The notes under the pieces were generated by a model. That model made no database searches, had not been told where the DNA came from, and saw nothing but the letters and a program-made list of their open reading frames with translations. From the NCBI GenBank assembly GCA_013368315.1, contig JAACJM010000018.1, forward strand, positions 1 to 64,000: a stretch of DNA of 64,000 nucleotides, in the 5' to 3' direction. This stretch comes from Tetrapyrgos nigripes. Taxonomy: Eukaryota; Basidiomycota; Agaricomycetes; Agaricales; Campanellaceae. Positions 4,923 to 13,601 of the stretch are shown here, in pieces. The stretch's first letter is position 1. Every line of letters begins with the position of its first letter. A program made the translations under genes and the position numbers.

Positions 4923-5569
4923 TATCCCTCGAGGTACCCACAGGCAACATGATGATGAAGGGCAAGGGCAACAAGGATGTCAGAAGAGAAGGAGGCAGAT
5001 AAGAGGGTGTGCAGAGTGTAGGATGGGAGAAAGCATTGTGGTATGTACTACCTGTATGCATTGTGTCGGTAGTGCAATGTATCCTGTCCCGACAAACAAT
5101 ATGATTCTTTTTCTACCAATTAACAGAGTGCATCTATTGCTGGGGGATTTGGAAGACAAGCTTGAATTGCCCTGAAACAGAGTCATTTCAACTGACCGGG
5201 CGAAATTCTTGGAAAATTTGATGGTGGGTCAAAACCAGGTTTTTTTGGCGGACAGAATCACCTGGTTTTGAGAAGGGTACTAATCCCTCCAGAAAAGGGG
5301 GAAGATCCGTTCAACACCAATTTTTAATAAATCGGTGGAAAACCCAGTCGAGGCGGGTGAAAATCCCCCATCCGGCAGTCCACAGTGACTTTTTCAACAG
5401 AGTTGGCAGATGTGTGTGAGAGTAGCTGTAATATGGAACAGGTGAGAGATACAATCCACTCACATTTACACTCACATGATAGTTAATCTTTTCCTTATGG
5501 CCAAGCAGGAGTAGTCATAGATAAGCTGTTGAGATGTTCGTTAGATACACCAGACAGTCCATCCACCAA

Positions 5570-6942
5570 CACACCGAAAAGGGACAAATTTCCACTCGAC
5601 GGATATGTGAACGGATATGTGCATGGAAATAAGATATATTTGGAACCTGGATTTCAGTACAAAAAGATGATGTATCTGTAAGGTAGATATCTGAAAAGGA
5701 AGTTGCTATATAAGGATGCATTTTAGTACATTTGATTGATGTGCAGAAATATTGCGTATCAAAGCTATTGAAAGAAGTACAAAAAGACCTCATATCAAGG
5801 CTCCGGATATGGTTACGGACATGGGTCTGGAAAGACAATAAGTCCGGCTTCCTGATATGGGTACTAATAATTCATATGTCCGTTGAACGGATATGCGGAT
5901 TCTGGCCTATCCATTCAACGGACATATATGCTTGTGGATTGTGGACAAAATTATTTCCTGCATCTTGCCACTGATTTTCGCTGTTCCCGCACTTTTCTAG
6001 GCTATTTTCAAGTCCCCCGAACAAATTCAGTCTATGACTCACATCGTTGAATTTTGGTCCTAGAAATTCGCACTTTGATTTAAGGTGCCAAAATGCATCG
6101 CTAGTCTTTCAGGAGTCCGGCGCGCACTTCTAGCGTGACATGTGACATGGGCAAGTTACCGCACATATCTTTCACTTTCACCGCACATTTCTTTCACTTT
6201 CACCAAACTTTCATGGGGTTTTTTCCTGAACTTTTACATACGTCAAGCATAAATAGAAACTATGATTTAGAAATCAATTATTCCTTCAGCAACGACTTGG
6301 TCTTTTGGCAACATATAACATCATTAACCCTAGAATGCCCTTGACTAAGCGAAGGGCATTCTGGGGAACTGGCGGGCCGATTAGCTGGTCCGCTTGTCGT
6401 AACTTGCCCATGTCACATGTCATGCTAGAAGTGCGCGCCGGACTCCTGAAAGACTAGTGATGCATTTTGGCACCTTAAATCAAAGTGCGAATTTCTAGGA
6501 CCAAAATTCAGCGATGTGAGTCATAGACTGAATTTGTTCGGGGGACCTGAAAATAGCCTAGAAAAGTGCGGGAACAGCGAAAATCAGTGGCGAGATGCAG
6601 GAAATAATTTTGTCCACAATCCACAAGCATAGACATATGAACCATTGGCACCCATATCTGGAAGCCGGATTTATTGTCTTTTTGGATGCATATCCGTAAC
6701 AATGTCCGGAGCCTTGATATGAGGTCTTTTTGTACTTTTTTCCATAGATTCAATATGCCATGTGTCTGTGCACCAGTCAAATGTACCAAAAGACTTCCAG
6801 ATATATTGGCTTTCTGTTCAGATATCTAGTCTACGGATACATCATCTTTTTGTACTTATATCTAGTTTCCAAATATATCTCATTTTCGTACACATATCTG
6901 GTCACATATCCGTCAAGCAGAAATTTGTCCCTTTTCGGCGTG
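5570..6942. mobile_element. Insertion B, fold-back element with long inverted arms
   Basis: The left part (5570 to about 6165) and the right part (about 6395 to 6942) are long imperfect inverted copies of each other. The outermost bases are CACACCGAAAAGGGACAAAT on the left and, on the reverse strand, CACGCCGAAAAGGGACAAAT on the right. CAA at 5567-5569 is repeated at 6943-6945; removing the element plus one CAA restores an uninterrupted helicase reading frame, which fixes the boundaries well. About 230 bp of unique sequence lies between the arms. The arms contain many ATATCCG/CGGATAT words. There is no coding sequence, so it is non-autonomous and would have been mobilised by another element. 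Confidence 0.8.
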
Positions 6943-6978
6943 CAATGTGTATTTGTGTCTTACTTGCAGGGAAAATAC

Positions 6979-7111
6979 TAGACCTGTAACTAGGTCCCTC
7001 TAGTTAACGAGGAGTTGATCGAAGGCAGAGCCTTTCCTCGCTAGAGGGACCTGTCGCAAAGGCCGGATCTTTGGCCGACACTACATATGACGTAGCTAGA
7101 CTCTCATGTGA
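6979..7111 (+). repeat. Left TIR of element C with internal hairpin
   Basis: It matches the reverse complement of 13015-13147 over its whole length apart from a diverged patch at about 7055-7077. Inside it, AGGTCCCTCTAG (6992-7003) and CTAGAGGGACCT (7041-7052) are perfect inverted repeats, and a nested pair (GAGGA/TCCTC, AAGGC/GCCTT) continues the stem. The RecQ-like start codon lies only about 10 bp inside, so the TIR probably also holds the promoter. Confidence 0.85.
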
Positions 7112-7120
7112 TCTCTGAAA

Positions 7121-9782
7121 ATGGGGCATTGCCTAATTGGGCGATTACGATTTGCGCTGACGTATCACGTACCTTTCGCTGTAACCACCTTCGTACTCTC
7201 TGTAATCTCTGTATTCCCTTCATATACCCTCCAAATGTCCTCTATTAGCAGCACTCATCTCACTTCCACTTTTTCTGACACTCCGGAACCAATTCCAACG
7301 CAAATAGCCACCAACTACGCGACATTCTTCTCATCACTAACCAGTTCTCTTCCTCTGACATCTACGGACTTCCCTTCTGAGCCAACTTCCGATATCGACA
7401 TGTTCTCCACAATTTCAGAATCCGAGGATGATGAAAATCAAGTCAAAATCACACAAACTTCCAAGAAGACACCCGAAACTGACGCTGAGAAGTTGACATG
7501 TCAAACATATCCGCAATACATAAAGTCCCTCAATGACCATACGGTTGCCACGATGGCGCGAACGGAGATCCCAGCTCATATGCTTCCTAGAGATTACATT
7601 GAAGGCCTGTCATGCGCGTTCCTCAAGAAGCTATGTTACCAACTATGTCTGGTCTGCTGGCAGGTCACGAAGAGGACCCAATGCCCTAAACCACTTCAGC
7701 TCGAGTTTGCGTGTGCTGTCCACAAGAAACAAGATGTCTTTATGAATGTTGGAACTGGATTTGGCAAGACACTGGCTATGATTCTTCTGCTGCTTCTCGC
7801 AGATGGAAGTTTCATAGTGATTATCATTTCTCCGCTCAAACGATTGCAGGCTTCTCAGGTATGTCATTTTGCTTTTAATCAATCTAGCCCATGTCTAATT
7901 ATTGGACAGGCCGACGCACTACGAGAGAAGTATGGACTATGTGCTGTCATCGTCAATGAAGACAGTCCGAAGGATGATGCATACTGGAAGGTAAATTGTC
8001 TCAACTATTTCATTATCTACTGGTACTGAATATGTTTCTTGTATTAGACTCATGCATACGACTTTCGACTGAAGCGTCTGGGCTCCGCAGACGTTTTCAT
8101 TTCTATGCCAGAGCAGTTCTTTGTGGCAAAAGAAGGCTATCCGACGATTTTCAGCAAGTTTGTCTGCAAATCGGTTTTTAATCAACGAATTGGTCTCATC
8201 GCAATAGACGAAGCACATTTTGTGCACCTTTATGGACTCGAGCATTACGGTATACACCCGTTCCGTCCTGCATATGGTGACCTTGGGGTATCAAGAATCT
8301 TTTTGGTCCAAACATTCCCTGGGCTGCTATGACAGCAAGTGCCACTCATCAAGTTCTGCGAACTCTTGAAAAACGAATTCTTTGCCCCAGCTACTGTACT
8401 CTGAGTGCGACGGCAAACTGGCCCAACATCATGTATGCTACTCACTGTGTACCCGGTCGCATCAGTGATCCGACGAATTACATTTGTTTCCTCTCCAATT
8501 CATTCAATTTCACAACTCAGAAACGCACGCTTATATTCTGTGATAACAAGGATGACGCAGCTGCTATTGCCTATTATCTGGACAGCTGTTGACCTTCGGA
8601 GTATCAGGGCCTTGGCATTGTGATGCACTATCACTCGCTGATGTCCGACACTTATCTTCGACGGGCTCATGAAGAGTTTACGAAGCTTAACGGCATATGC
8701 AAGATATTGGTTGCTACTGCTGGAGAGGGTACTGTAAGTATAACAATCTTTTGACATGTCCTTTTACTCACTATTCTTCAGGGAATTGACCATCCGGACG
8801 TAGAGATTGTTTGTATTGCTGGTCTTCCATCTGATGTGCATAATATTGCACAGTGGGGTGGAAGGGCAGTGAGACAGATATCTGCCAATGGACTTTGTGT
8901 TTTATTTCACGAGAAGTGGGCACTCAAGATTGATCTCTCTGACTACAGCTTTGAGTCGGATAGTTTCTCTCTCGACTCAATTGACTTCTCATCCTTCGAT
9001 GTCAATAGACCGCGCAGGCTTGTGCTTACTGAATGGTCTCCACCAGCTGATCGTGCAAGCTTCGCCTGTGTTGTCCTTACCAGAAATTTGTTCTGTGTGT
9101 GCCGTTTCATCGCAAGATGCTTGAGAGATAATACTCCTGAATGTAAGTGATTAGTATCTCAATATTATGTCAATGCAGTTAACCCATTATTATAGCCATC
9201 AAGTTCTCTACACTGTTCTGTTGTTTCTTCCATAGTGCCAACTTTGACTTGCAGAACTTTCTGCAGGGCAAACTCTGGGATGGCATAGAGATGACACCTG
9301 ACACTACTCCATCTACATTACCCAAGCCAAAATCTCGTTCAGGCAAGAAACAACGTCTACTTGAGAAGAAATTTGAAGCTTGGAGACTAGAAATGCATCA
9401 GGCACAACCTTGGCCTCCACGACCGGTATACTATATTCTTCCTGATTCTCACATCAAATTACTGGCAGCATCCCTTACACATTTGATTCGGAGCACACAT
9501 GATCTTATAGGACTTACTGGGCAGTCGGTGGAGTGGGGTCAGCGCTGGGGTACATCTCTATGTAAGTTGGTGATGGAATTTGATTGCATGGAGGAGATGG
9601 TTAGATCACCAGAGTTTATTGAGGAGAGTGATTGCGATGAAGATCAGTGGGAGGATATATTTGCCCAAGACCAAAAGACACGAGAACGTACTGATAATTG
9701 TGCTCTCAAGGCCATGGGTACCGACAGATATGAGACTGATAAGCGCCGACGTAATGTATTTTTTGAGATTACAAATGAGTAG
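7121..9782 (+). pseudogene. RecQ-like DEAH helicase of element C (two disabling defects)
   Basis: Five exons (7121-7858, 7910-7990, 8048-8733, 8782-9142, 9196-9782) joined by 48-57-bp GT..AG introns give about 817 codons. The N-terminus is Ser/Thr-rich. Motif I is GTGFGKT, motif II is IDEAH, motif III is TASAT, and motifs V/VI read VATAGEGTGIDHP and QWGGRAVRQ, the order and form of RecQ-family superfamily-2 helicases (3'-5' ATP-dependent DNA unwinding). The C-terminal third is unique. Two breaks are visible: a one-base net frameshift in a G run at about 8283-8290, between DEAH and TASAT, and an in-frame TGA at 8590-8592. The gene begins at the inner edge of the left TIR and ends one base from the convergent DUF6589 gene. 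It could instead be a telomere-linked-helicase relative, but the TIR context argues for a transposon gene. Confidence 0.85.
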
Positions 9783-9783
9783 A

Positions 9784-12700
9784 CTACTTTTCTGTAACAT
9801 CTGCAAAATCTACTTGTGGTAACTCATCTGTCTTGAAACCAAATATAGCTGCTAAGTCTCCATCTTCAGAACTACGAGGTTTCCCGCTTTTCAAGTCCTT
9901 CAATGAGCTGTTGAATGTCTTGAGTCCAGTTGACCTGTACTTCTGCTGACCAGCTGCGTGAAGATCTGGAAATGCCATCGCTGTCTCATTGCCCTCTCTG
10001 TCCACGTCTTCTCGTAATAACTTCCATCTCTTCACTGCTTCGCATACCTTTCGCCCTAAAACCAATGTATCCGGTTTGGTGTGTCCAGTCTTTTGATAAG
10101 GCACATTGACGGAAGTCCGGACAGTTTTCTTTAGTGCCTCTAAATACTTGATAGCTGCTGAGATTTCTCGGTACTTATACCAGTCCAAGTAGACTCCTTT
10201 AGCAGCGAGAAGACCCTGACAATGATTACAATTTCAAAGGTAAGTTCCATCAAAAAATCGCAGAACTTACTTTGAGAACACCAATTAAATGTTCAATATT
10301 CATATCAATTCCCATGCCATGTCCTGGTAGCCCTGCAATGTTCACTATCATGTTATCGTGCATGATATTCCTGAATGCCAAATGTGTCAGATGTCTGGAT
10401 AGAAGTGGAGATGCTAATTACTTACGCAAAACCTAGTGGCCAGACTTTCTTGAGATTGTGCACAAAATGCAATAATTGTGTGCTATAGTTGTTTGAGCCT
10501 GCACCACGGAAGATTCGAGCTAAATCCATCAGAATATCCTCAATATGACCAAAATCACAATCAGAAATAGCTTGAACAAGTTCTCGAACATAGAGAAGGT
10601 CTCGAAAAAGCTTGCACATGTTCTGGAAGATGATATCCTTTGGATTGCGCTCCTTGTCTCTTTTCTCAGATGGGGAAGGAGGAGGAGTAGGTTGATATTT
10701 CTGGAGTATAGACATTGCAATCTCAGTGAGTTTCTCTGGTGACAGATTTGTTCGTGCAAATGCAGAGAAAGACCTATGCCCACATTCGCACTCCCAAGCA
10801 GCAAGAATGATGCCATCAAAGATTTGCTGAAAAGCAGATAACAGAGTATGATAATCTGGCTTCTCATTTCCGAGTCTCTTCTTCTCGAGTAATGAGAAAA
10901 AGAAACTTAGTGTGCCGGGCTGCGATGCTTCTCCACGATGAACATGTAGAATCGCCCACACAAGGTTTAGGCACACATGAAAGAGTCCCAGACTAAATTG
11001 CAGAAATTCTTGACAATCCCATGGTGCAATTTCCACACGACGATGGCTTTGAATAGCCATGCTGCGGACAACGGTAAGGAGATCTGCGAACAAAGGCCAT
11101 GCGTAGTCGTGTAACTGCTCTGGGGAAAAGCCAAGCTGATTGATGAAGATATCCTCTTGGACGCGTATGTTTCCAATGACCGAGGCCTCTTCAGTCAGGC
11201 AAATTTGAAGGGGAAAGCATTTCGTCTGATGATCAGAGGGTAGCTGTCTGCGGGGATGATGTTGGAGAAGAGGATGTTTCGAGTGGTATCTGGGGAATGA
11301 ATCGGACATGTACTTTGTTAGAACACCAATGATATGAACCACAGATTGCAGGTAATAGGCTTCAGTCTCGATTTCAGTAGGCATGATATCAATGAGGGTG
11401 AGTCCTGTCGACTTGAGAAAGTTCTCCCATATTGGAGCGAGTTTCATATCCCTAAAGTCAGCTCTGAAAAGTTGATATGCTAATGGAAAAGTTGCAGTCT
11501 GGAATTTGAGAGCTGCACCAGGTCGTTGCTCTACAAAAGTAGACTGAGCTACATGGATATTGTCGTAGGTCATGCCAGATGGTTCACAGCGAACCATCAG
11601 CATTACTTCATCCATTGCGCGTTTACCGAGTTCTACAACAGTGCGAGCAACTGTATCTGTGGAGGGGATAAGACCAGACCGGTGGAGAACATCCATCATC
11701 TGTTCCGAAGTACCATTTGCCCAGGCATAGATGCCAAGTGCACTCTGGAACTTTGCAGAATTTCGTGACCATGTGAAATGGACTTGGGAGGTGATAATAT
11801 GACAGCGCTAATGAAATCACTGTAAATAGCAATCCCTGTGTAAATTGGAGTTGAGCTTACTATTGCATTGAGCTCCTCCTGGAGTGGTTTGACTTCGTTC
11901 TTAGCGTCCATTGCAGCTGTGCGCAAAATCCTTGAGAAGGTTGGAGTCGGTGCAGATTTGGCAATTTTGGTAACATCCCAGTCTTGAAGATAAGACTGAG
12001 AAATATCGGATGACTTGGCTTGCAATAATGGTTTTGCAGCATCAAACTCATCGGATATCTTCTCTTCCACCAAAGCAATCGCTACATCACGAGTAGACAG
12101 CCAAGAGTTGATGCACAGCTTCCCCTCGTCACTGTCCCATAAAGTATCCAGAAGCCGTTCAACATTCTCGTACTTTTCCTTGAAAAAGGATGTACAATAA
12201 CGATGAAGCTCAGCATTGGTAGAGTCACTCTTTAGAATGGAAATCAAAAGATTAGTGAGACTCGAGCAAGCCACACGAATATGTCCCAGTGCTTTCAGGA
12301 GATTCAGGCGCTCTCCACAAATCTCTCCACAAATCTCCCGTGTTTCCGAAGTCTCAACTGAAGCGGGAGACATTAGAGTCGAGGGATGAGGTCTAAAAAG
12401 TATATCGCAAGAGTCAAGATTCGAAGTATCTACTTAAAATACGGGACTCCATAAAAATCTTCTAACCATTGAAAAAGGTATCATCAACATCCATCAATCC
12501 ACTAGTGAATACATCTTGTTGAGGGACCAGAGAATCCAACGTCAAACTACTGACCCGAAGGTCCAACGGAGAAAGAGATGCCAGATTATTAGGTGTCACA
12601 GGTGAAGGGTTTGGTATAGTATGAGGTGTTTCCGGCAGGGAGCTAAACGGAAACTGAGATGTCGATACAGTGGGGGAGACTGACGGAGATGCCTCCTGTT

Positions 12701-12905
12701 GTGGTACTCGGAATGTAGGACTTGTCTTGGGCTTTCACGCAGGCATTACTTTGCCCGATACACTATGCCAGACAGTGCTCGAAGTGCTGGTAGTAGGTAG
12801 AGCATTGTTGGGGCTCTCTGCTTGCAGTAGTGGTGGTGCAGATTCTGAGAATGACAGTGTGGACTGTCCAGGAAAGACTTGCTCTCGCTTCTTCTTTGTG
12901 GACAT
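9784..12905 (-). CDS. DUF6589 protein of element C, candidate transposase
   Basis: Exons 12905-12467, 12429-11861, 11807-10426, 10370-10271 and 10215-9784 keep one frame across introns of 37, 53, 55 and 55 bp (about 973 residues). From an ATG at 12373 the frame is completely open (808 residues); the Ser/Pro-rich N-terminal exon carries one TGA at 12735-12737. The 37-bp first intron is unusually short and least certain. DUF6589 hallmarks are GIYAWANGTS..MMDVLHRSG near 11760-11675, SGMTYDN near 11560, the block FADLLTVVRSM near 11070, and VNIAGLPGHG...IEHLIGVLK in exon 4. Asp of YDN, Asp of FADLL and Glu of IEH are my candidates for a metal-binding D-D-E set; that is inference. An ECECGH motif near 10780 may bind zinc. 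Convergent with, and one base from, the RecQ-like gene. Confidence 0.75.
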
Positions 12906-13014
12906 GGAGAGATGTTGGTATCACTAAGAGAAGTGGAAAATTTTTCTATTGGAGGTACATACATAAGCAGAGATTTGTAATCACCCAATTAGGCAGTGGC
13001 CCAAATCGAGACCT

Positions 13015-13147
13015 CACATGAGAGTCTAGCTACGTCATATGTAGTGTCTGCCAGAAAAATCACCTATGCGGCAGGCCCCTCTAGCGAGGAAAGGCTCTGC
13101 CTTTGATCAACTCCTCGCATATTAGAGGGGCCTAAGTCACAGGCCTA
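13015..13147 (-). repeat. Right TIR of element C with internal hairpin
   Basis: Inverted partner of 6979-7111. The stem arms here are AGGCCCCTCTAG (13073-13084) and TTAGAGGGGCCT (13122-13133). Compared with the left arm, one base pair of the stem has changed on both sides (T-A on the left, C-G on the right), so pairing is kept. The DUF6589 start codon at 12905 lies about 110 bp inside. Confidence 0.85.
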
Positions 13148-13601
13148 GGAAAATACAGGAGCTGGCAGTTTGAATAGTGTGATTTCCACTGCTAATCTGA
13201 AAGGGAGTCTAAATTCTGCTCTACATAAAGTTCAGACCTCACTAAGTGGTAACTGCCCTAAATGTGGACAACATGTACAGGTTAGACGTTTATTCAATAT
13301 GTGTCCTGCAATTGTTGCAGTTGATTCCTCTCCAGATAAGGTAACTCTAACTAAATCAATAAAGGTTACGTGTTTGAGTCAGAAGACAGGAACACTACAT
13401 TTAAGAGGTATAATATATTGGATTAACAAGAATCACTTCATGGTGCGAGTAATAAGAAAGGACAATACTGTGTGGGTTAACGATGGCATGGTCCAGGGCA
13501 TCCACTCATTATTACAGGGAAATTTGGGTGACACAACAATGAAAAACTTGGCCAAATTTGAAGATCACCCTGCATGCTCATATATCTATGCTAAACATTG
13601 A

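Follow-up and report, generated by a model that had tools for sequence, protein, structure and literature searches.

What moves a 6169-bp unit of a mushroom genome in which a RecQ-family helicase gene runs head-on into a gene for a DUF6589 protein, a family that Pfam lists as being of unknown function? The unit occupies positions 6979–13147 of the window, the stretch of 64,000 nucleotides analysed here from the agaric Tetrapyrgos nigripes (contig JAACJM010000018.1, positions 1–64,000). It is a genuine transposon with terminal inverted repeats (TIRs), and we are confident that it is a decayed copy of an AcademH-type cut-and-paste transposon, with a DUF6589 transposase and an accessory RecQ-family helicase. 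AcademH denotes DNA transposons of the Academ superfamily that carry a helicase (Kojima 2020, via PMC10045372, PMC10799480 and PMC8290104). The kind of transposon thus already has a name, and the main gain is a probable function for DUF6589: if it serves Academ-type elements with a helicase as their DDE transposase, a large and unexplained gene family of mushrooms becomes annotated mobile DNA, and exact ends, the length of the target duplication and the likely minimal lengths of the ends are now given.

Ends, target duplications and related copies

The element is delimited by the following features:

6979–13147, no strand: whole element, very probably an AcademH-type DNA transposon, 6169 bp, with TIRs, a flanking 9-bp direct repeat and related copies about 95% identical
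6970–6978, + strand: left target-site duplication (TSD), GGAAAATAC, a perfect 9-bp match to the right copy
13148–13156, + strand: right TSD, GGAAAATAC, a perfect 9-bp match to the left copy
6979–7148, + strand: left TIR, beginning TAGACCTGT, 84% identical to the right end
12977–13147, − strand: right TIR, beginning TAGGCCTGT when read inward, placed by alignment to the left end
6992–7052, + strand: left-end subterminal palindrome, arms 6992–7003 and 7041–7052, perfect over 12 bp
13073–13133, − strand: right-end subterminal palindrome, imperfect, arms 13073–13084 and 13122–13133, placed by eye through alignment to the left end

The first-pass annotation, made from the sequence alone, had described a 9-bp duplication, two convergent genes and inverted ends of about 130 bp. 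The duplication is perfect, the boundaries are exact, and the genes do converge (helicase on the + strand, DUF6589 on the − strand); the inverted ends are real as well, but they extend over about 170 bp. Both palindrome arms are present in 10 of the 14 element ends compared by eye. When the whole window was scanned with the 12-base end motif (up to two mismatches), 9 forward and 15 reverse candidates were found, and among pairs 60–9,500 bp apart the only one with an 8–11-bp duplication (at most one mismatch) consists of the true element ends.

Elsewhere in the genome, the end pattern TAGACCTGTNACTNGGTCCCTC, searched with up to two mismatches, has 24 matches, against none for the reversed pattern used as a control, and 13 of the 24 fall in the window or in the 15 regions that were fetched for related ends and that, with the window, make up a survey of 16 loci. 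A partner end was recognised at nine of these loci, and all nine carry a duplication with no more than one mismatch, 9 bp long at eight loci and 10 bp at one, as had been anticipated for further copies of the unit. Two of the nine, on contigs C515 and C437, have a common flank and duplication and probably represent one insertion, leaving eight independent events. A chance origin of the duplications was considered and rejected, given that they occur at nine of nine partnered loci and at none of the spurious-looking motif pairs (the other pairs in the window, and those at loci L012, L038 and L062).

The long copies, on contigs C37 and C329, are about 95% identical to that in the window, and the copy on C122 is partial; no partner end was recognised in the DNA fetched at these three loci or at those on C12, C75, C128 and C2. 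Three non-autonomous elements measure 887–894 bp (C95, C175 and C58), and five further non-autonomous loci span 71–122 bp, among them elements of 86 and 87 bp (C54 and C193) that match only the outermost 34–35 and 45–56 bp of the two ends.

The two genes and their recurrence as a pair

The coding features are these:

9784–12905, − strand: DUF6589 gene, probable DDE transposase, five predicted exons, broken (PF20231 match, exon model, fold of a 71%-identical relative)
11562–11564, − strand: first catalytic Asp candidate (YDN), aligned with residue D144 of protein P0001, in β-strand 139–147; all 52 of 52 ungapped alignment rows have D here
11082–11084, − strand: second catalytic Asp candidate (FADLL), aligned with P0001 residue D304, just after β-strand 299–303; D is conserved in 51 of the 52 ungapped rows
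10292–10294, − strand: catalytic Glu candidate (IEHL), aligned with P0001 residue E531, in helix 526–543; E is conserved in all 51 ungapped rows
7121–9782, + strand: RecQ-family helicase gene, intron-containing, broken (DEAD, PF00270; its closest relatives by sequence in the PDB include RecQ helicases)

The PF20231 match scores 228 bits against a cut-off of 27. In the predicted model of a relative that is 71% identical, the core is RNase H-like and places D, D and E at the positions typical of DDE transposases; the best structural matches of the model are the P element, Hermes, RAG1 and Transib. The acidic residues that had been singled out beforehand in YDN, FADLL and IEH are thus in place in the model and nearly invariant, so that the assignment of DUF6589 as a DDE transposase, with the RecQ helicase as its accessory, is well supported, albeit by a predicted structure. 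A search of PDB chains with the DUF6589 profile returned only two telomerase chains with E of 0.15–0.18, which we take as chance rather than kinship. The DUF6589 alignment was also used to scan viral and prokaryote contigs, where 85 and 12 pattern matches, respectively, came up, none of which encodes a relative.

The helicase gene is predicted to include the last open reading frame (ORF), 9183–9782, whose stop codon (9780–9782) nearly touches that of the DUF6589 gene (9784–9786). With a longer read-through query, its best PDB sequence match is labelled only as an ATP-dependent DNA helicase, followed by human RecQ1, BLM and bacterial RecQ; the first helicase exon alone gave no match in the PDB sequence search. 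Homologues number 65, and in all six that were scanned recQ_fam is the top NCBIfam model, each time under the curated cut-off. For the 18 closest (P0103–P0120), Pfam lists two helicase domains only, or none, and many more distant RecQ matches additionally list PF16124, the RecQ zinc-binding domain.

Both genes look damaged in the window copy, a point absent from the first-pass annotation. By comparison with the C37, C329 and C122 copies, the helicase gene has lost 1 bp near 8285, and by comparison with C37, the sole other copy with that stretch, it has a TGA nonsense codon at 8590–8592. Relative to C37 and C329, the DUF6589 gene has a TGA nonsense codon at 12735–12737 in exon 1 and is 19 bp shorter at about 12430, near the predicted acceptor of intron 1. 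Because of the nonsense codons in both genes and the frameshift in the helicase, this copy is probably dead and unable to make either protein intact; the exon limits are themselves predictions, however, and an intron spanning a nonsense codon is conceivable. The catalytic residues of DUF6589 are retained.

Genome-wide, 108 PF20231 matches form 54 clusters and 104 Helicase_C matches form 101. A Helicase_C match lies within 10 kb of 16 of the 54 DUF6589 clusters, compared with 1.15 expected (Poisson tail about 1.5e-13, a rough figure only, since transposition and duplication yield copies that are not independent of one another). The anticipated pairing of the two genes at other loci is therefore borne out, and invariably on opposite strands, with nine convergent and seven divergent arrangements. 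No helicase match was seen at the remaining 38 clusters, although, as throughout, match numbers are lower bounds and introns split genes, so that some of these clusters may have a helicase gene nearby.

Some of these loci deserve individual mention. Contig C80 carries two pairs (5394–8793 and 72942–76341), inverted to each other and with almost identical scores, which reflect either recent transposition or inverted duplication. A diverged pair on C88 (locus L064, 107300–114800) has a 21-bp inverted repeat of the ATTTGCTAATCACAC type at 1260–1280 and 7420–7440, about 6.2 kb apart and with no clear TSD, and perhaps belongs to a second family, older than the first and with ends of another kind. 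At the C300 pair, no ends were found within the 6.5 kb examined.

Mutator-like elements (MULEs) often have 9-bp duplications and long TIRs, so that one might picture a non-mobile fungal gene pair captured by an unrelated element of MULE type, or of another type with 9-bp duplications. We find this scarcely credible: the DUF6589-helicase pair recurs at 16 loci with its opposite orientation preserved, DUF6589 itself has a predicted DDE fold, and the Pfam matches of the eight ORF pieces scanned include no MULE model.

If the element instead moves by means of its own DUF6589 protein, this transposase would bind the TIRs of about 170 bp, cut at the TAGRCCTGT ends and join the cut ends to target DNA with a stagger of 9 bp, or sometimes 10 bp, which host repair would turn into the target duplication. 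The helicase encoded by the convergent gene would act as an accessory, whose likeliest task is to open the palindromic DNA near the ends or to aid repair at the excision or insertion site. We infer both catalysis by DUF6589 and this role of the helicase.

Placement among known superfamilies

The first-pass annotation knew of no named superfamily with this pair of genes and held that the existence of one would count against it. The published descriptions of Academ and AcademH largely supply such a superfamily. Academ transposons contain a RecQ helicase (PMC3627910); AcademH makes TSDs of 9 or 10 bp (PMC10045372); fungal Academ copies, often annotated as host genes, have DEAD/DEAH helicase and recQ_fam domains (PMC6416283); AcademH is known from Basidiomycota, Ascomycota and Mucoromycota (PMC10799480); and Academ is counted among the DDD/E superfamilies (PMC9587614). 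The present element has a RecQ-type helicase beside a DDE-type transposase (the latter in the predicted model only), TIRs, TSDs of 9 or 10 bp and a basidiomycete host, and no difference from AcademH was found in a comparison made by description. Its membership in the Academ superfamily is, accordingly, our inference.

That the link between DUF6589 and Academ is one of description, without direct sequence comparison, is also the first of three points that weigh against this placement. The second is that the literature search found no mention of DUF6589 (the sole match for PF20231 was an unrelated optics paper), and the third that KolobokH shows RecQ to be paired with another transposase superfamily too (PMC9587614). 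They would favour a separate, unnamed superfamily, in which a DUF6589 transposase unrelated to Academ and close in fold to P, hAT and RAG took up RecQ independently, and in which the passengers of 71–87 bp suggest that only the outermost 34–56 bp or so of each end are needed in cis for transposition. The predicted fold does match the P element, hAT (Hermes) and Transib-RAG1 best, but the element differs from these in its RecQ gene, in its TSDs of 9–10 bp and in the lack of a sequence match to the DUF6589 profile in the PDB. We consider a separate superfamily improbable, since RecQ, the TSD length and the fungal host all fit Academ and AcademH as these are described, and a joint coincidence is unlikely.

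Within Academ, the AcademX nuclease is of XPG type, and none of the 10 XPG_I matches shares a contig with a DUF6589 match (by eye). AcademX, a member of the same superfamily provided that Academ elements use DUF6589 as their transposase, encodes a nuclease and makes TSDs of 3–4 bp (PMC10045372), as opposed to 9–10 bp here. TSD length likewise separates the element from the CMCT clade (EnSpm, Transib and Plavaka; 2–5 bp) and from Zisupton (KDZ; 8 bp) (PMC12730594).

This leaves KolobokH, which in fungi likewise has a DDD/E transposase accompanied by a RecQ helicase; moreover, in one rhodophyte Kolobok the RecQ gene is on the complementary strand, as it is here (PMC9587614). In fungal KolobokH, by contrast, the helicase lies downstream of the transposase domain, whereas the present element encodes it in a gene of its own that converges on the transposase gene. 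KolobokH also has a C/DxxH motif between the second D and the last E (PMC9587614), and 34 of the 55 rows of the DUF6589 alignment have a C/DxxH, a possible counterpart, at P0001 position 438, where the window protein has F for H (by eye). Assignment to KolobokH appears very unlikely to us in view of the gene arrangement and of the target sites: the duplications measure 9–10 bp at all nine partnered loci and none is TTAA, the sequence duplicated by Kolobok.

Insertion site and neighbouring DNA

It had been proposed that removal of the element heals a host reading frame. Joining the flanks does open a frame of 185 codons, which, unjoined, meets a stop 22 bp inside the element; a true host exon is nevertheless uncertain because the upstream side, which contributes 37 of the 185 codons, lies mostly within a foldback repeat, and because a splice-acceptor-like TTGCAG stands just 5′ of the target site. 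Empty sites, which had been expected as support, did not turn up: in a search of the same genome with the joined flanks (40 of 136 candidates scored), no empty-site paralogue was found; what matched was each flank at its own place and a repeat that covers the first 39–55 bases.

Directly after the element, a host-side ORF of 150 amino acids (13149–13598) has weak, below-cut-off matches to DUF2209, a zinc ribbon and Peptidase_C39. Upstream, a foldback element (5570–6942), whose inverted arms measure about 590 and 544 bp, stops 36 bp short of the transposon. A relative of this foldback ends 51 bp ahead of the C37 copy (L011, 137–461, with the element starting at 513), and on C30 the helicase match of the DUF6589-helicase pair has a foldback-matching stretch at a distance of about 1 kb. 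By a rough estimate, such proximity is unlikely to be due to chance, and the foldback and the transposon possibly share an insertion niche or preference.
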